Under the pieces are notes generated by a model. It ran no database searches. It worked only from the letters and a program-made list of their open reading frames with translations, and was not told the origin of the DNA. Source: Fibrobacterota bacterium (lineage in GTDB: Bacteria; Fibrobacterota; Fibrobacteria; UBA11236). Taken from it: DNA of 64,000 nucleotides. Below are positions 20,863 through 29,525 of this stretch, one piece after another. The position numbers and the translations under genes are program-made. Each line of letters begins with the position of its first letter. Positions within the stretch are counted from its first letter, which is position 1. Where the stretch lies: assembly GCA_028287505.1 (NCBI GenBank), contig JAQBPN010000007.1, positions 1 through 64,000 of the forward strand, read 5' to 3'.

Positions 20863-21318
20863 TCAGGCGTGGACTTCCTGTTGCCGCGCCGGCTTCACTT
20901 TTCCACGCGCCCCTTCTCCCGCCAGCATGCGATCGAAGCTCCACTTTCCCGCGCCGCGGCATGCCATATACAGGAACAGCACCGAGTACATGAGCGCGGG
21001 TTCTCCTTGGTTGGCGGCGGGAAGGAACTTCTCGCCGAAAGCGAATTTCCAATGGAACTGGACGTAGGCGACGGCCATGGTGCCGCTGGCCAGGAAAGCC
21101 ATCCAGGGCGTCAGCAAACCTATCGCGATCCCCAGGCCCGTCACCAACTCGATAACGCTGCCGTACCAGCCCTGGGTTCCGAAATGGGGCGCGTATTCCG
21201 GCGGGATCAGGTAGCCGGTCAATCCCTGCATGCCGTGGAAGGCGAAGAGCAATCCTATGATGATGCGAAGGAAGGTATACGAGGCTTCGGTTTTGGGTTC
21301 CAATAAGCGAGCGAGCAT
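20863..21318 (-). CDS. DoxX-family membrane protein
   Basis: 151 residues with four membrane segments. The family opening ASYTFLRIIIGLLFAFHGMQ and the helix SVIELVTGLGIAIGLLTPW are typical of DoxX proteins, small inner-membrane proteins often linked to redox or oxidative-stress loci. The ATG at 21318 has a strong AAAGGAGA ribosome site. The longer frame from 21351 does not. It is the last gene of the MFS-SRPBCC-DoxX operon, whose first gene has an ECF42-type promoter. Confidence 0.88.
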   Translation of the reverse strand: MLARLLEPKTEASYTFLRIIIGLLFAFHGMQGLTGYLIPPEYAPHFGTQGWYGSVIELVTGLGIAIGLLTPWMAFLASGTMAVAYVQFHWKFAFGEKFLPAANQGEPALMYSVLFLYMACRGAGKWSFDRMLAGEGARGKVKPARQQEVHA

Positions 21319-21374
21319 GTTGTTTCTCCTTTGAATGGCATTGGTAATCATCTAGATTCAGTCTTGAATGTACA

Positions 21375-21836
21375 TTACTCCATCTTGCGCAGGCGTTCTT
21401 CCAGGCGATCCAGATTCTGGCGGTTCCCCTCCACTGCGAATCCCTTGACCTTGTCGTATTCCGCCGCGGTCTCGAAGAGCATGCGCCAATCCACCAGCGT
21501 CTTGCCGGCCTGCCCGGTGAAAGTGACCGTAGCCCGGAACCTGGGCCCCGAAACGTGGTCGAAGACGATGCGCTCCGGCCTGACGATTTCGACGAAGATG
21601 CTTTCGTTCTGGTAGTCGGTGCCGTCCGGACCGTGCATGACGAAGCGCCACACGCCGCCGGGCCTGGCGTCGAACTCGTGGAAGGTGTTGGTGAAGCCCT
21701 TGGGCCCCCACCAATGCTTCAGGTGATCCGGATCGGTCCAGGCCTTGAACACCAGTTCCCGCGGCGCGTCGAAAACGCGCGAACTGACGATTTCCCGATC
21801 CGACGTATCCATTCCCGCGCTGTTTCCTTTCGTCAT
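21375..21836 (-). CDS. SRPBCC/AHSA1-domain protein
   Basis: 153 residues forming a single START-like AHSA1 domain, with SSRVFDAPRELVFKAWTD, HLKHWWGPKGFTN, GGVWRFVMHGPDG and a C-terminal helix LDRLEERLRKM. This cytosolic fold binds small hydrophobic ligands. Relatives are common beside YCII, DoxX and VOC genes in sigma-factor or ArsR-controlled loci. It sits 12 nt after the MFS transporter gene and 56 nt before DoxX, all in one direction. A GGAG-like site within the gap supports the ATG used. Confidence 0.9.
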   Translation of the reverse strand: MTKGNSAGMDTSDREIVSSRVFDAPRELVFKAWTDPDHLKHWWGPKGFTNTFHEFDARPGGVWRFVMHGPDGTDYQNESIFVEIVRPERIVFDHVSGPRFRATVTFTGQAGKTLVDWRMLFETAAEYDKVKGFAVEGNRQNLDRLEERLRKME

Positions 21837-21848
21837 CGTCCTTCTCCT

Positions 21849-23354
21849 TTAATGGATCGAGCCAGCCACGGCTTCCGTTCTTCCCGGAGCGGTACCGGCG
21901 TGGCCCGGGCCGGAACCGGCCGTCTCGCGGAGGAGCGCGCCTCCGAGGACGGCGGCCAGGGCGGCGAATACCGCCCCGGTGAGGAATGCGATGTGGTAAC
22001 CGCCGTTGAGGGCGTCAAGCGGGGCGGCGCCTGATGCAATCAGGCTGCCGGTGCGGGACGCGGCGAGGCTGGCGAGGACGGCCAAACCGAGCGCCCCGCC
22101 CATCATGAAGGACGTGTTGACCAGCCCGGATGCGAGGCCGGATTCCTCCGGCGCCGAGTCGCTCATGGCCGCGAGCAGCAAGGGGTTGAATGCGATGCCG
22201 GCGCCCAGACCGAGAAGAAGCATGCTCGGAAGCACATCGGCGATGAAGGTTCCGTTCGCGGGAGCCCGGGCGAAAAGCAACAGGCCCACGGCCGCCGCAG
22301 CCAGCCCGGCGGCCAGGGGAATCCTAAGACCGAAACGTCCTACCAACCTCGCCGAAAGGCCGAGCGAGAAAGCCGCCATGATGAGATTGGCCGGCAGGAA
22401 GGCGAGACCCACGCGCAGAGGGTTGTATCCCAGCACCAATTGAAGGTAAAGGGCGGAGAGGAAGAACCAGGCGAACATGGCGGCCGCCCACAGGATGCCC
22501 GCGATATTGGCGGTCGAGACGTTGCGCGATCTGAAAATGCCCAGCGGCACCAGGGGCGAGCGGACCCGGGACTCGATGAAGAGAAACAGACCCAGCAGAG
22601 CCGCCGCCACGGCCAGCAGACCCAGGGTTCTGGCGGAGGTCCATCCGGCCTGGTTCCCATTCACGATGGCGAAAACGGCGAGCATCAGGGATACCGTCAC
22701 GGTGACCGCGCCGCCCACGTCCAGGCTGCCGGTTTCCGCCCGTCCGTGCGAAGCGGGCAGCAGTTTCCAGGTGAGGGCGAAGACCGCCGCGCCTACGGGC
22801 AGGTTCACCAGGAAGATGAAGTGCCAGTCGAAGGCGTTGGTCAGTAAACCGCCGAGCACGGCTCCCAGACTGCCGCCCCCGGAACAGACGAAGCCGAAAA
22901 TGCCCATGGCCTTGGCGCGTTCGCCCGGCTCCGGGAACAGGTTCATCATCAGGGAAAGCACCACGGCGTTGACGACGGCGCCGCCCAGCCCTTGCAGCCC
23001 CCGCGCCGCGATGAGGAACCATTGCGTGGTGGCCATGCCGCAAGCGAGCGAAGCCAGGGTGAAGACCGTGATGGAAACGAGAAAGACCCGCCGATGGCCG
23101 AAAAGATCGCCCAACCTGCCGCCCAGAAGGAGAAACCCGCCGAAGGTGAGCATGTAGGCGTTCACGACCCAGGCGAGGGAGGTTTCCGAGAAGCCCAGAT
23201 CCGTCCGGATGGAAGGCAGCGCCACGTTCACGATGGTCGAGTCGAGCACGATCATGATGGCGCCGAGACAGAGCACCATGAAGGCCAACCAGCGCCTCCG
23301 GCCTTGCATTTCATGGGTCAAAATCTTCCCTTCCTGGGCTTCCGTTGCCATCAT
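21849..23354 (-). CDS. MFS drug-efflux transporter, DHA2 (EmrB/QacA) type
   Basis: 501 residues with 14 predicted membrane segments. Motifs of the DHA2 family are visible: LDSTIVNVALPSI in the first helix, the loop GGRLGDLFGHRRVFL (motif A), and the motif C region GFVCSGGGSLGAVLGGLL. It probably exports hydrophobic drugs or toxic metabolites by proton antiport. GGAACGG precedes the ATG. Upstream, at 23376-23402, is a TGTCGA-N17-CGTC motif matching that of the YCII/sigma operon. It therefore probably belongs to the same ECF42 regulon, although the chitinase gene stands between them. Confidence 0.9.
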   Translation of the reverse strand: MMATEAQEGKILTHEMQGRRRWLAFMVLCLGAIMIVLDSTIVNVALPSIRTDLGFSETSLAWVVNAYMLTFGGFLLLGGRLGDLFGHRRVFLVSITVFTLASLACGMATTQWFLIAARGLQGLGGAVVNAVVLSLMMNLFPEPGERAKAMGIFGFVCSGGGSLGAVLGGLLTNAFDWHFIFLVNLPVGAAVFALTWKLLPASHGRAETGSLDVGGAVTVTVSLMLAVFAIVNGNQAGWTSARTLGLLAVAAALLGLFLFIESRVRSPLVPLGIFRSRNVSTANIAGILWAAAMFAWFFLSALYLQLVLGYNPLRVGLAFLPANLIMAAFSLGLSARLVGRFGLRIPLAAGLAAAAVGLLLFARAPANGTFIADVLPSMLLLGLGAGIAFNPLLLAAMSDSAPEESGLASGLVNTSFMMGGALGLAVLASLAASRTGSLIASGAAPLDALNGGYHIAFLTGAVFAALAAVLGGALLRETAGSGPGHAGTAPGRTEAVAGSIH

Positions 23355-23375: not shown

Positions 23376-23402
23376 GACGTTCGGGAACCCTCGATTTCGA
23401 CA
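23376..23402 (-). promoter_or_regulatory. ECF42-type promoter of the MFS-SRPBCC-DoxX operon
   Basis: On the minus strand TGTCGA (23397-23402) and CGTC (23376-23379) are 17 bases apart, about 22 nt before the transporter start. ECF42 sigma factors are reported to use a TGTCGA -35 and a CG(A/T)C -10. The same arrangement with the same spacing occurs at 24919-24945. Confidence 0.65.
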
Positions 23403-23582
23403 AGGGCGCGTTTATTTTTTCCGGCCGGGCTTTTATCCCGGAAACGCCGATAGTTCCCGGTCCAAACGGCGGGAAGCGTCATTTTAAATACTCTTGGGCG
23501 GAAAATCCGTCAAGGGCCCGGAATAAGCGTCAGGAGGGCGGCCTGGCGGCCGCATTTTCCAGTCCGCGGGTCGGTCGGTGCG

Positions 23583-24659
23583 TCAATCCGTAAGGATGGC
23601 TTTGGAAAAATCCGCATTCGTTCCCGCCGAAAGCCGGATGACATATGCCCCCGCGGCTCCGGGGTTTCTCACGCGGATTCCCTGGAAGTCGTACACCCCC
23701 GGAACCAGGGCGCCATCGGGACCCGGAATCGCGGCATAGGAAATCCCGTTCCGGCCCGTGAGGCCGTTGCGCTTTATCGAGAAGGAAGCGTTGTCCCGCT
23801 TGAAGTTCCCGATGGTGGATATCCCCGTGGTATAGGCGAGCGACACGTAGCGGGCCACCGTGTCCATGGTCGCGGCGGGCGCATGGGTGATGTCCCAGAC
23901 CATGATGCCGCCGTAGCCGTTGTCGATGGCGTAACGGCATTTGGCCGCGATGTCGGCCACGTCCGTGATCTCATTGTCCGTATCGAAGCCGAACCCCACG
24001 CCTTGCAGGCCTTTCGGGACTCCCTTGTCGAGCACGGGCTTGAAGAGGCCGTCCATGTCCTTCACGCGGTTGTAATAGGACATGTTGTTCATCTGATCGA
24101 GGTAGGGAGCGATGGAGGCGGTGCAATTGGGATACCAGTCCGTGGCCACCGCCGCGGTCATCATGGGCCGGGGGGACATCTTATCGATCGAGTCGCGCAA
24201 TTCCTTGTGCAGGCTCTTGAACCTGGTCACCATGGCGGCATTGTCGTTTTCCTCGCCCGCCTCCCAATCCATGTCCACGCCATCGTAACCGCCGCTCCGG
24301 ACCAGGTTGAGGATGTTCTTGACCAGAATGGTCTGGGTGGCGGCGCTGCCGGTCGCGGCCGAAAAATGCGGGCTTTCCCCCGCTCCGCCGATGCAGACCA
24401 GGGCCTTCACGCCATGCTGATGGCAGGCGGAAACGAAGGTCGCCGAATTCATGGCCAGGCTGCCCGGGTTGATGCTTCCGTTGCCGGAAACCGTGACCTG
24501 GAAGTTGAGAAGATGCGTGAAAGACTTCCAGGCTACCTGGCTGGTGCTGCCCGTGAAGATATAACCCGCGGACCAGCCTACATATTTGCCCTTGTATTGG
24601 GCCTGGGCCATAACGCCCGTGGTCAAGATCAAAGCTGCCGTCAAAAGCGACTTGTTCAT
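23583..24659 (-). CDS. Secreted glycoside hydrolase family 18 chitinase-like protein
   Basis: 358 residues. A signal peptide (1-20, cleavage after AQAQ) precedes a GH18 barrel. The SxGG-like strand ALVCIGGAG (about 86-94) and the catalytic DGVDMDWE (126-133, proton donor Glu133) are intact. The MNNMSYYN segment and the final GGIMVWDI strand also fit. It probably cleaves chitin or related N-acetylglucosamine polymers outside the cell. The last 80 residues or so form a beta-rich tail with a GVYDFQGIRV segment and a hydrophobic end, resembling a type IX sorting domain. It lies between the two arms of the ECF42 locus without an ECF42-type motif of its own. Confidence 0.9.
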   Translation of the reverse strand: MNKSLLTAALILTTGVMAQAQYKGKYVGWSAGYIFTGSTSQVAWKSFTHLLNFQVTVSGNGSINPGSLAMNSATFVSACHQHGVKALVCIGGAGESPHFSAATGSAATQTILVKNILNLVRSGGYDGVDMDWEAGEENDNAAMVTRFKSLHKELRDSIDKMSPRPMMTAAVATDWYPNCTASIAPYLDQMNNMSYYNRVKDMDGLFKPVLDKGVPKGLQGVGFGFDTDNEITDVADIAAKCRYAIDNGYGGIMVWDITHAPAATMDTVARYVSLAYTTGISTIGNFKRDNASFSIKRNGLTGRNGISYAAIPGPDGALVPGVYDFQGIRVRNPGAAGAYVIRLSAGTNADFSKAILTD

Positions 24660-24988
24660 TCTGGAACTCCCCCTCCGGATTGGAAACGGCCGAGGCCGAA
24701 AACCAACAGGTCGACTTACATGCGGGTAATCTTCCTGCGGTTAATATGGGACGGGAAAAGGCGCTTCACCGGCTGAGAGGATTGCACAATTACAGAATGC
24801 GTCCAATGCTCCCGAAACTATCCTCTTCGATTGGAGTTTATTGGCGCCGACGATGGAAATTTCATTTTTTCGTGATGTTTTCGCTGATTTTGAAAATCGG
24901 CGGGATCCGATGAGCGCATGTCGAATTCCGGTCCGCCCGTTCGACTACTGGATGAAGCCGGTCCATTTCCCGACTTGGAGAGGAAGCG
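24660..24988 (+). promoter_or_regulatory. Divergent control region holding the ECF42-type promoter of the YCII operon
   Basis: No gene is supported in these 329 bp. On the plus strand TGTCGA (24919-24924) and CGAC (24942-24945) are 17 bases apart, 43 nt before the first YCII gene. Just upstream, GATTTT-G-AAAATC (24886-24898) is a perfect inverted repeat that could bind a second regulator. AGAGGAAG serves as the ribosome site of the YCII gene. Confidence 0.65.
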
Positions 24989-25363
24989 ATGAAATATCTC
25001 TGCCTGGTATACCTGGAAGAAAGAATGCGCGATGCATTGCCCAAGGCCGAATTGGATGCCTGGATCCGCGACGCGTTGTCCTACCATGAAACGCTCCGGA
25101 AAAGCGGGCATTTCCTGGCCGCGCAGGCCCTGCAATCCGTGCATGCCGCCACCACCTTGCGGGCGCGGGGCGGCAAGGTTTCCCTGACGGACGGCCCTTT
25201 CGCGGAAACGAAGGAGCAGTTGGCCGGTTTCATCCTGATCGAGGCCCGGGACCTGAATGAAGCCATCCATGCGGCGTCCAGGATTCCCGGAGCCAGGTAT
25301 GGAAGCGTCGAAGTGCGGCCGATTTGGGAATTGAACGATCTATATTCAAACGAAAGGGACTGA
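24989..25363 (+). CDS. YCII/DGPF-domain protein 1
   Basis: 124 residues forming one YCII-related fold (dimeric ferredoxin-like). It has the opening MKYLCLVYLEE, the DGPF signature LTDGPFAETKEQLAGF and the LNEAIHAASRIP helix. DGPF proteins are the genetic hallmark partners of ECF42 sigma factors; their biochemical role is not settled. A strong ribosome site and the ECF42-type promoter precede it. It is followed by a tiny coupled frame, a second YCII gene and the sigma factor. Confidence 0.92.
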   Translation: MKYLCLVYLEERMRDALPKAELDAWIRDALSYHETLRKSGHFLAAQALQSVHAATTLRARGGKVSLTDGPFAETKEQLAGFILIEARDLNEAIHAASRIPGARYGSVEVRPIWELNDLYSNERD

Positions 25364-25364
25364 T

Positions 25365-25430
25365 ATGAGAAAGATAATCCTGCCGAACATGACGACCCCG
25401 AACAATCTTATATCAGACTGGAGAGAATGA
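25365..25430 (+). CDS. Possible 21-residue peptide, coupled between the two YCII genes
   Basis: An ATG starts 1 nt after the stop of the first YCII gene, with AAAGGGA upstream at usable spacing. The frame encodes 21 residues beginning MRKIILPNMTTP, and its TGA overlaps the ATG of the second YCII gene. The opening resembles the N-terminus of RibD-type dihydrofolate reductase family proteins, which are common in such loci. It may therefore be the stub of a deleted gene rather than a functional peptide. Confidence 0.35.
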   Translation: MRKIILPNMTTPNNLISDWRE

Positions 25431-25801
25431 TGAAATACCTTTGCCTGGCCTATTACGACGTACCCAAATACGAAGCCACTCCCCCCGCCGAGTTTGAAGC
25501 CATGGTGGCCCAATGCGCGGCTTACGATAAGAAGCTCAAGGCGAGCGGACGCCTGTTCGCACATGGATCCCTGGGAGCTCCCAAGGACACGCGCAACCTG
25601 CTGCCCCGGAGCGGCAAGGCCATCGTAACCGACGGCCCCTACATCGAGACCAAGGAGCAGGTGGGCGGCTGGTTCATCATCGAGGCCAAGGACATGGACG
25701 ATGCCCTGGAAGTGGCCAAGAACCATCCGGCCGCCAATATGGGAGAGCAGATGGGATGGGGCATAGAAGTCCGCTCCGCGGATTTTTTCGAGTCGTTCTG
25801 A
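25427..25801 (+). CDS. YCII/DGPF-domain protein 2
   Basis: 124 residues with one YCII domain. It begins MMKYLCLAYYD and contains VTDGPYIETKEQVGGWF (a DGPY variant of the DGPF motif) and MDDALEVAKNHP. It is a paralogue of the gene 64 nt upstream and probably forms a homo- or hetero-dimer with it. The GGAGAGA ribosome site lies inside the short frame that precedes it. It lies 31 nt before the sigma factor in the same operon. Confidence 0.92.
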   Translation: MMKYLCLAYYDVPKYEATPPAEFEAMVAQCAAYDKKLKASGRLFAHGSLGAPKDTRNLLPRSGKAIVTDGPYIETKEQVGGWFIIEAKDMDDALEVAKNHPAANMGEQMGWGIEVRSADFFESF

Positions 25802-25832: not shown

Positions 25833-27110
25833 ATGAGCGGCGAGATCGGCCGGGAGACGGCCGGCGAATCCGGCGGGGACGTGCGGCAAAAGGTGGACGC
25901 CGTCTACCGCGAAGAGTCGCGCCGCGTCCTGGCCACCTTGATCCGCTTGCTCGGCGATTTCGATCTGGCCGAGGAGGCCTTGCACGACGCCTTCCGCGCG
26001 GCCCTGGAACAATGGCCCCGGGTGGGCATACCCGCCAACCCCCGCGCCTGGCTGGTCTCGGCCGGGCGCTTCAAGGCCATCGACGCCATCCGCCGCCGCG
26101 CCCGCTTCGACGCCTTGGACGATCCCGATGCGCAGGCAGCCCCCGCTCCGGACGATGCCGAGGCCTGGGAGCGCGAAAGCGTGGAGGACGACCGTCTGCG
26201 CCTGATCTTCACCTGCTGCCATCCCGCCCTGCCGCCGGAAGCCCAGGTAGCCTTGACGTTACGCGAGGTGTGCGGCCTCACCACCGAGGAAATCGCCCGG
26301 GCCTTCCTGAAGGGGGCGCCCACCCTGGCCCAGCGCATCGTGCGCGCCAAGGCCAAGATCCGCGAGGCGCGCATCCCCTTCCAGGTCCCGCCCCCGGCGG
26401 ATTTGCCCGGACGGCTGGATTCGGTGCTCCACGTGGTCTACCTGGTTTTCAACGAAGGCTACTCCGCGTCCTCGGGCGCGTCCCTGACGCGGCATGACCT
26501 TTCCGGAGAGGCCATCCGCCTGGGCCGGCTGCTGGTGGAATTGCTGCCGGAGCCGGAAGCGATCGGCCTGCTGGCCTTGATGCTCCTGCATGAGTCCCGG
26601 CGGGCCGCGCGCGCCACGCCCCAAGGGGAGCTTATCCTGTTGCCCGATCAGGATCGTTCCCTATGGGATAAGGACAAGATCGCGGAAGGTTGCGCCCTGG
26701 TGGAAAAGGCCCTGACCTCGCGCCGGTTCGGGCCGTACACGTTGCAAGCGGCCATCTCCGCCGTCCACGCCGAAGCCCCCGCGGCGGAGGCCACGGACTG
26801 GCCCCAGATCGTGGGATTGTACGACGTGCTGCTGCGGGCGGACCCATCGCCGGTGGTGGAGTTGAACCGGGCCGCGGCGGTGGCCATGCGGGACGGACCG
26901 GCGGCGGGTCTGGCCCTGATCGATGCCCTCCTGGAACGAGGCGATTTGTCCGATTATTATCTGGCGCATTCGGCGCGGGCGGATCTGTGCCGCCGCCTGG
27001 GAAAAAACGCGGAAGCCGGCGCGGCCTACCGGCGCGCCCTGGAGTTGACCCTTCAGGAGCCGGAGCGGAGGTTTCTGGAGCGGAGGCTGGCGGAACTGCA
27101 GGCCAATTGA
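25833..27110 (+). CDS. ECF42-group RNA polymerase sigma factor with C-terminal TPR-like extension
   Basis: 425 residues, more than twice the length of a typical ECF sigma factor. Region 2 lies at about 15-85 (LIRLLGDFDLAEEALHDAF, NPRAWLVSAGRFKAIDAIRR) and region 4 at about 135-185 (LTLREVCGLTTEEIARAF, TLAQRIVRAKAKIREARI). The remaining 240 residues are helical repeats (DUF6596/TPR-like). They include DSVLHVVYLVFNEGYSASSG, VELNRAAAVAMRDGP and YYLAHSARADLCRRLG, the standard ECF42 extension. No anti-sigma gene is adjacent; in this group the C-terminal extension is needed for activity. It probably drives both TGTCGA-type promoters in this locus. Confidence 0.93.
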   Translation: MSGEIGRETAGESGGDVRQKVDAVYREESRRVLATLIRLLGDFDLAEEALHDAFRAALEQWPRVGIPANPRAWLVSAGRFKAIDAIRRRARFDALDDPDAQAAPAPDDAEAWERESVEDDRLRLIFTCCHPALPPEAQVALTLREVCGLTTEEIARAFLKGAPTLAQRIVRAKAKIREARIPFQVPPPADLPGRLDSVLHVVYLVFNEGYSASSGASLTRHDLSGEAIRLGRLLVELLPEPEAIGLLALMLLHESRRAARATPQGELILLPDQDRSLWDKDKIAEGCALVEKALTSRRFGPYTLQAAISAVHAEAPAAEATDWPQIVGLYDVLLRADPSPVVELNRAAAVAMRDGPAAGLALIDALLERGDLSDYYLAHSARADLCRRLGKNAEAGAAYRRALELTLQEPERRFLERRLAELQAN

Positions 27111-27773: not shown

Positions 27774-29525
27774 ATGCCCCGCTTCGCCCTACCCTTCGCC
27801 TTGCTTTGCCTGATTTCCGCCTTCCTTTCGCCGGCCGCCACGGCCGACGAGGATCCGGCCGTGGTGGGCCGCTTCGGGCCCTTGATCAAGACGGAGGTCC
27901 TCCCCATCCACGTGGTCCTGCTTCCCACGGGAAAGATCCTGTATTGGGACCGGCACGATCAGGGAACGCATGACATCATCCCCCGGGTCTGGGATCCCGC
28001 GGCCAATACCACCATCAAGACTCCCAATCCCGGATACGATCTGTTCTGCTCGGGCCATTCCATCCTCCGGAACGGGGACGTGCTGATCGCCGGCGGCCAT
28101 ATCGTGGACGGGACGGGCGAAGACAAGATGCGCATCTACAACTACAAGACCAACACCTGGGACGCCGGCATCGGGCCCATGAACGACGGGCGGTGGTACC
28201 CGACCAACACCACCTTGCCCAACGGGGACGTGCTCATCACCAGCGGATCCACGGAAACGGACGTGGGGAACGAAATGCCGCAGATTTACCAGTATCGGAC
28301 GCGCACCCTGAGGAATCTCGACAGCGCCCTGCTGGAAGTGGGATTGTATCCCGTCATGCACGTCATCACTTACAACAAGGTCTTCCTGGCGGGGCCGGAT
28401 TCGCTGACGCGCTTCCTGGATCTCCGCGGCAGGGGCAAGTGGATCGACGTGGGTTTCACCAACCTGCGCAAGGTCCGGAGCTACGGCTCCTCGGTCCTGT
28501 ACGCGCCGGGCAAAATCATGATTTGCGGCGGCGCCAAATTCCCGCCCAGCGCCTCCGTGGAACTCATCGACGCGAACGCGGCGTCTCCCAAATGGGTGTA
28601 TTCCGATTCCATGCACTATGCCAGGCGCCACCATACCGCCGTGATGCTGCCGGACGGAAAAGTGATGGTCACCGGCGGGACCAGCGGCGAAGGATTCAAC
28701 AACGCCACCGGCGCGGTGTACGCTTCGGAAATGTGGGATCCGGCCACCGGCCATTGGACCGTCATGGCCTCCGCCAAATCCGCGCGGCTGTATCATTCCT
28801 TTTCACTGCTGCTGCCCGACGGTCGCCTGCTCACCGGCGGCGGGGGCCATCCCGGGGACGATATCGATTTTCTCTCCGAGCATCCCGATTTCGAAATCTA
28901 CGAGCCTCCCTATCTGTTCCGTGGGACCCGGCCCGTCATCGACGCGGCGCCGGACACCCTGTACTACGGCCAATCGTTCCATATCACCACCGCGAGCGTA
29001 GGTGACATGCATGTTACCTTGCTGCGCCTGGCGGCGGTGACCCATGCATTGGACATGAATGCGGACTTCAACCGCCTGCCCTCCCAGAGGGAAGGCACCG
29101 ACGACTTCATCGTGGCCGCTCCGGAGGATTCCGTGGTTTCCCAACCTGGACCCCATATGCTGTTCCTGTTGGACAGCGCGGGCACGCCTTCGGTGGCGAA
29201 AATCGTCTTCCTCACCTCGCCCCATGGACCCGCCTCCATCGCCGCGTCCGGCAAGAGCGCGGTCCGTTACGGCTTCAGCGTGTCCGGCAACCGCCTCAGG
29301 ATCGCGGGACTGGGCAAGGAGGCCGGAACGTCCTGTTCCCTGCTGACGCCCCAAGGAGGCCGGGTGGCTGAGCTGAAGCGCTTTTCCGGCGGGGCCGGCG
29401 GGATTGGCGAGACCGGCGGCACCGACGGGGATTTCCGCTTGCCGGCGCAAAAGCTTTCGGGCGCCTACGTGGTGGTGGTCCGGACGAAGAGCGGAAAGCA
29501 TACGGGGAAGATTTTCATCCCCTGA
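27774..29525 (+). CDS. Secreted copper-radical oxidase (galactose/glyoxal oxidase-like)
   Basis: 583 residues. A signal peptide (to about ATA-DE) is followed by a kelch propeller and a DUF1929-like domain. All five active-site residues of copper-radical oxidases appear conserved: Cys92 (FCSGH) and Tyr142 (RWYPT), which would form the thioether-linked radical cofactor, plus Tyr340-His341 (RLYHS) and His424 (VTHALD) as copper ligands. Family members oxidise primary alcohols or aldehydes and release hydrogen peroxide. The terminal 75 residues (RIAGLGKEAG, GAYVVVVRTKSGK) form a beta tail resembling a type IX sorting domain. The substrate is unknown. The RWYPT context is closer to glyoxal oxidase than to fungal galactose oxidase. 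Confidence 0.87.
   Translation: MPRFALPFALLCLISAFLSPAATADEDPAVVGRFGPLIKTEVLPIHVVLLPTGKILYWDRHDQGTHDIIPRVWDPAANTTIKTPNPGYDLFCSGHSILRNGDVLIAGGHIVDGTGEDKMRIYNYKTNTWDAGIGPMNDGRWYPTNTTLPNGDVLITSGSTETDVGNEMPQIYQYRTRTLRNLDSALLEVGLYPVMHVITYNKVFLAGPDSLTRFLDLRGRGKWIDVGFTNLRKVRSYGSSVLYAPGKIMICGGAKFPPSASVELIDANAASPKWVYSDSMHYARRHHTAVMLPDGKVMVTGGTSGEGFNNATGAVYASEMWDPATGHWTVMASAKSARLYHSFSLLLPDGRLLTGGGGHPGDDIDFLSEHPDFEIYEPPYLFRGTRPVIDAAPDTLYYGQSFHITTASVGDMHVTLLRLAAVTHALDMNADFNRLPSQREGTDDFIVAAPEDSVVSQPGPHMLFLLDSAGTPSVAKIVFLTSPHGPASIAASGKSAVRYGFSVSGNRLRIAGLGKEAGTSCSLLTPQGGRVAELKRFSGGAGGIGETGGTDGDFRLPAQKLSGAYVVVVRTKSGKHTGKIFIP

Follow-up and report, generated by a model that had tools for sequence, protein, structure and literature searches.

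A predicted ECF42 sigma-factor regulon joining YCII genes to a drug-type efflux operon in a Fibrobacterota bacterium

ECF42 sigma factors are already known to occur together with YCII (DGPF) proteins and to use a distinctive promoter class, and the question raised by this locus is whether such a sigma factor also directly transcribes an efflux operon. A preliminary description of the window (the whole 64,000-nucleotide stretch analysed here, positions 1 to 64,000 of contig JAQBPN010000007.1, assembly GCA_028287505.1) had proposed that two matched promoters tie a YCII-YCII-sigma operon and an MFS-SRPBCC-DoxX operon into one regulon. Both motifs lie at the positions and on the strands that it gave (Table 1), and Pfam and NCBIfam upheld its gene names (MFS_1, AHSA1/SRPBCC and DoxX; YCII, YCII and sigma-70 regions 2 and 4 with DUF6596). 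The two motifs are the only matches to TGTCGA-N17-CGWC in the window, where 0.20 were expected and two occurred in 1 of 100 shuffles. Both are close to gene starts: 21 nt separate the −10 element of the MFS promoter from the MFS ATG (23354), with a Shine-Dalgarno-like AAGGA between, and 43 nt separate that of the YCII promoter from the ATG of the first YCII gene (24989), with a Shine-Dalgarno-like GAGAGGAAG between. The two promoters are about 1.5 kb apart, and the space between them holds a GH18 chitinase-type gene; in the matrix scan described below this gene had no ECF42-type site of its own and is not evidently a regulon member.

Table 1 Features of the two operons, their predicted promoters and a further candidate target
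Feature	Position	Strand	Basis
DoxX-family membrane protein, third gene of the MFS operon	20863..21351	-	Pfam DoxX 7.7e-10
AHSA1/SRPBCC ligand-binding-type protein, second gene of the MFS operon	21375..21836	-	Pfam AHSA1 1.4e-29
DHA2/EmrB-QacA-type MFS efflux transporter, 501 aa, first gene of the MFS operon	21849..23354	-	Pfam MFS_1 1.6e-51
ECF42-type promoter, MFS-SRPBCC-DoxX operon	23376..23402	-	−35 TGTCGA 23402-23397, N17, −10 CGTC 23379-23376, then TA
GH18 chitinase-type gene	23583..24659	-	Pfam Glyco_hydro_18
ECF42-type promoter, YCII-YCII-sigma operon	24919..24945	+	−35 TGTCGA, N17, −10 CGAC, then TA
YCII (DGPF) protein 1	24989..25363	+	Pfam YCII 1.4e-21
YCII (DGPF) protein 2	25427..25801	+	Pfam YCII 6.2e-19
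ECF42-group sigma factor, 425 aa, helical TPR-like C-terminal extension	25833..27110	+	Pfam Sigma70_r2, r4_2, DUF6596 4e-37
ECF42-type promoter, 16-nt spacer, TGTCGATTTATGGGTCTCCGTTCGACTA, before YCII-SRPBCC pair	own genome (G000), C6:36705-36732 (L241)	-	N16 scan

The transporter scored 254.2 bits against NCBIfam TIGR00711 (cut-off 230.2), which places it among the DHA2 (EmrB/QacA-type) exporters. The AHSA1/SRPBCC gene follows 12 nt after the MFS gene, and the DoxX gene more likely starts at 21318, preceded by AAGGAGAAA, than at 21351.

The sigma factor had been assigned to the motif-using ECF42 group, and its anatomy fits. As described for the Streptomyces venezuelae members Sven_0747, Sven_4377 and Sven_7131, this group has a sigma2-sigma4 core with a TPR-type C-terminal extension of ~200 residues, a YCII/DGPF neighbour and no anti-sigma gene alongside (PMC8999054). 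The window protein likewise matched Sigma70_r2 and Sigma70_r4_2 above the Pfam cut-offs and lacks region 3, and its C-terminus of comparable length matched DUF6596 and, weakly, TPR_12. In the AlphaFold2 model the chain is all helical past residue 188, with pLDDT values that mostly exceed 90 beyond residue 240, and the best Foldseek matches in the PDB were TPR proteins (2pl2, TMt 0.72) and ECF sigma factors, with low whole-chain TM-scores. Two YCII genes lie directly 5′ of the sigma gene, YCII genes were also present at nearly all of 80 related ECF42 loci, and the main genes between 19773 and 29525 include no anti-sigma gene recognised by Pfam. Together with window sites that have the TGTCG −35 and CG(A/T)C −10 elements of ECF42 target promoters, these hallmarks of sequence and modelled structure identify the protein as a predicted ECF42 sigma factor. 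Where S. venezuelae has a YCII neighbour, the window has two YCII genes before the sigma gene and, in addition, a separate DHA2 efflux-SRPBCC-DoxX operon with the same promoter. Close 3′ of the sigma gene lies a gene for a galactose-oxidase-like protein with kelch repeats (27774-29525, plus strand), whose product reached 196 bits against the NCBIfam GlxA model, below the cut-off of 800; in a congener (G005, L136:6193-7923) a protein with a similar N-terminus adjoins an ECF42b gene.

How much weight the two sites can bear depends on bases beyond the bare motif. The preliminary description had proposed a genome scan in which a short list dominated by YCII, DoxX, SRPBCC and efflux genes would support its view, and the scan came out in its favour: of the 13 matches to TGTCGA-N17-CGWC in the 6.07 Mb genome, the four just 5′ of YCII, SRPBCC or efflux genes belong to MFS-SRPBCC-DoxX, YCII-YCII-ECF42, YCII-ECF42b and SRPBCC. 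The motif itself proved unselective: most other matches fall inside genes, and the count is not above chance (~19 expected, from 0.20 per shuffled window × 95), so that the bare motif was rejected as proof. A looser form, TGTCG-N16-20-CGWC, was uninformative as well (466 matches vs 351 for a reversed control). Because the bare motif is weak evidence, we collected 80 foreign loci around relatives of the window sigma factor from many phyla (1.16 Mb) as the source of a consensus. In these loci the 17-nt spacer gave 75 matches, compared with 3–27 at each other spacer from 10 to 25, nearly all of them immediately 5′ of YCII or other small genes adjoining the sigma gene. A matrix trained on 72 of these foreign sites, with the window left out, has the consensus TGTCGA-W-T-Y-N9-CC-R-WW-CGAC-TA. 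It scored the YCII-YCII-sigma site at 38.1 and the MFS site at 26.8, whereas the third-best place in the window scored 5.1, the best of 30 shuffled windows 14.3 and the remaining 11 bare matches of the genome at most 14.1; the computed expectation for scores of at least 26.8 is 0.007–0.009 per genome. In IUPAC form (TGTCGA-WWY-N9-CCRWW-CGWC-TA, hereafter the extended pattern) a search of the whole 6.07 Mb genome gave two matches without mismatch, which are the two window sites, and allowing one or two mismatches added none. Of the two measures of rarity, that from the matrix is the fairer, because the training set excluded the window and the pattern was composed with both window sites already in view; our genome-wide statements rest on pattern searches. 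What makes the window sites exceptional is thus WWY after TGTCGA, CCRWW before the −10 element and TA after it.

The genome carries four DUF6596 (ECF42) sigma genes, in the window and on contigs C59, C46 and C76, and the MFS operon could mainly be read by one of the paralogs, for instance that on C59, or by several. The C59 protein is 48% identical to the window sigma factor, and its locus (C59:30594, L005) has its own YCII gene behind a different promoter version (TGTCGATTCCGG...TCGTCGT) that is shared by an SRPBCC gene on contig C123 (C123:26251, L013) and by a congener's ECF42b locus (L135). These C59-type promoters have TTYCSG after TGTCGA, and CGTC followed by GT. The CGTC of the C59 YCII, C123 SRPBCC and congener ECF42b promoters recurs as the −10 element of the MFS site, whereas CGAC stands in 71 of the 72 sigma-linked training sites, and this agreement speaks for a paralog as reader. 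However, the MFS site combines CGTC with CCGAA before and TA after it, as in the window sigma's class; it reaches 26.8 on the window-class matrix vs 14.1 for the C59 and 6.3 for the C123 site, and it lies 1.5 kb from its class-mate. We therefore consider reading mainly by a paralog unlikely and the window sigma factor the likeliest reader of the MFS site on sequence grounds, although the three other ECF42 paralogs could contribute cross-talk. Since the second sub-type (TGTCGATTYCSG...TCGTCGT) is found with a lone SRPBCC gene as well as with the second ECF42 paralog, two partly insulated ECF42 circuits may run in this genome.

Spacer length adds a further candidate target. In congeners G002–G005 (L099-L101, L106, L140-L143) the same −35 and −10 blocks, the former beginning with CGTCGA in G004, precede YCII-ECF42 operons at a spacer of 16 nt, and the sigma factors of these loci are ~75% identical to that of the window, whose genome uses 17. 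An N16 scan of the own genome gave four matches; three lie inside genes and were dropped, and the one upstream site, before a YCII-SRPBCC pair on contig C6, was retained as probably marking a third target of the window sigma factor. Within the genus the strict pattern otherwise occurs almost only in ECF42 loci, with a single match in G001, the sole genome without ECF42; the regulon thus appears small, comprising YCII-YCII-sigma, MFS-SRPBCC-DoxX and probably YCII-SRPBCC. The regulon picture of the preliminary description accordingly stands with regard to its two matched promoters, but it has to be amended by the presence of four ECF42 genes and of a second promoter sub-type, and by the likely C6 target, which it had missed.

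Sites of this kind recur in front of pumps in other bacteria. A search of 46 genomes with ECF42 relatives for the extended pattern (at most one mismatch) gave 67 matches vs 2 for the reversed control, with one to five sites each in 40 of the 46; they precede YCII, glyoxalase-like, DUF899, DUF1428, SRPBCC and efflux genes. Proteins of the DUF899 and DUF1428 types are recurrent behind such promoters (L198, L203, L212, L196, L206, L222, L224), which ties them to the ECF42 regulon. The CGTC form of the −10 element was found at 7 of the 67 sites, e.g., before an RND pump of an Acidobacteria genome (L192, G091:C39), where the promoter lies 20 nt before the adaptor-pump pair; a Gammaproteobacteria genome (L195, G098:C168) has one 28 nt before such a pair, and in Inquilinus (L215) a site lies 29 nt before an MFS gene. 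In Collimonas sp. OK242 (L217) a perfect site stands ~78 nt before an MFS gene whose product is 73% identical to that of the window. Within the family of Collimonas, the Oxalobacteraceae, a close MFS ortholog was found in 10 of 146 genomes and the promoter upstream of it in five of these ten (scores 33–38; MFS ~73% identical to the window's), all five of which carry ECF42 elsewhere in the genome, away from the pump.

This pairing is not universal. In 13 genomes compared (the own genome, the ten Oxalobacteraceae and G007 and G009 from the window's family) a site precedes the MFS gene in six of the nine that have ECF42 and in none of the four that lack it (Fisher p ~0.05 by hand, with relatedness ignored). 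Three Oxalobacteraceae genomes (G206, G208, G223) have ECF42 and the MFS gene with no site before it. G206 belongs to another phylum than the window, and its MFS ortholog shares a strand with a YCII-ECF42 locus ~3 kb away (L234, G206:C3:101600-106067); no strong site precedes that gene despite the physical linkage. Across 369 genomes of the class Gammaproteobacteria, a scan for the MFS protein gave only three strong matches, of which the two that were new lacked a site, and the ortholog is absent from the other genomes of the window's genus. In G007 and G009 the MFS protein is 70–71% identical to the window's, with SRPBCC adjoining and in G009 DoxX too; unlike the window, these neighbourhoods have neither an ECF42 gene nor an ECF42-type promoter, so this operon type also exists without ECF42 control. 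Among the 80 ECF42 loci (E 1e-8), SRPBCC lies beside 19, MFS beside one and DoxX beside none. Since MFS and DoxX are so rare there, the link between ECF42 and the pump is carried by an unlinked promoter and not by local synteny.

Chance resemblance of the MFS site, with the YCII-YCII-sigma promoter alone being real, would agree with the bare motif being no commoner than chance (13 vs ~19) and falling mostly inside genes. It is nevertheless very improbable: a site of the extended consensus, expected ~0.01 times per genome, is found immediately before a gene and close to an ECF42 operon, and the same promoter stands at orthologous pumps of another phylum. Its presence before the same pump in bacteria that are unrelated suggests a real link and not a local coincidence.

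The layout itself has precedents. Promoters of the ECF42 member RpoE10 of Sinorhizobium meliloti, mapped by RACE or RNA-Seq, have the form TGTCGG...CGTC (PMC6180224), and their layout is that of the window sites. By comparison, it is hardly credible that the element instead binds a repressor or activator controlling the efflux and YCII genes. ArsR/TetR-type regulators are frequent for efflux and SRPBCC genes, and one congener has an ArsR-like gene next to a related SRPBCC-DoxX operon, yet the element consists of two short blocks at a constant distance, lacks symmetry, keeps one orientation to the gene and lies near start codons. This layout, shared with the mapped RpoE10 promoters, points to a sigma-factor promoter. 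RpoE10 also has targets outside its own operon, among them glyoxalase-like proteins and one that carries a hydrophobic-ligand-binding domain, and over-expression of RpoE10 elicited no response from its YCII-rpoE10 operon (PMC6180224). The named RpoE10 targets include no efflux pump (PMC6180224), a target present only on the side of the window. The extension of the ECF42-DGPF pair that the preliminary description saw here was therefore new only in part: regulons beyond YCII were already on record for S. meliloti (PMC6180224), but the link to efflux recurs. In Pseudomonas putida, inactivation of ECF-10 (PP4553, ECF42) raises antibiotic resistance 2-4 fold, and the review reporting this makes no mention of a direct pump promoter (PMC4613276). 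Both systems are tied to resistance or efflux, with the ECF-10 effect opposite in sign to that of a directly activated pump. In the ECF42 literature covered, which leaves out the main Streptomyces paper, no efflux target of the group is described, and we found no directly controlled efflux pump that is conserved across phyla.

Taken together, we favour, with a probability of roughly 0.8, an ECF42 regulon in which the window sigma factor acts directly both on its own YCII operon, by autoregulation, and on MFS-SRPBCC-DoxX, and probably also on the YCII-SRPBCC pair on C6. The sigma factor would recognise the extended pattern at both window sites. At its own operon this would constitute positive autoregulation that amplifies sigma-factor synthesis, and at the second site it would switch on the DHA2 exporter together with the AHSA1/SRPBCC and DoxX proteins. 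The earlier proposal of efflux and ligand-binding genes as direct targets is supported in this form by sequence evidence, including the same promoter before the orthologous pump in five Oxalobacteraceae genomes. Control of ECF42 activity by the TPR-like extension through a partner has been proposed (review PMC8999054), and the C-terminus of the window protein may likewise control its activity in response to a signal or a partner, for which the YCII proteins are possible candidates. The output could be defence against a small toxic compound, which YCII and SRPBCC proteins would bind or modify and the MFS pump would export.

We lean somewhat towards a broader reading, in which ECF42 runs a compound-export response across several phyla with a drug-type efflux pump as a recurring, often unlinked, direct target: orthologous DHA2 MFS pumps in Fibrobacterota and Oxalobacteraceae, and RND pumps in Acidobacteria and Gammaproteobacteria genomes. 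In that circuit, ligand handling would fall to the YCII and SRPBCC proteins. ECF42 is a widespread group of sigma factors whose best-described targets so far are YCII proteins. A conserved, directly transcribed efflux pump would supply a physiological output for the group, and with it a simple assay based on inducers and exported compounds, and would thereby turn the nature of the ECF42 signal into a testable question, while the extended consensus makes it possible to compile the regulon of any ECF42-bearing genome.
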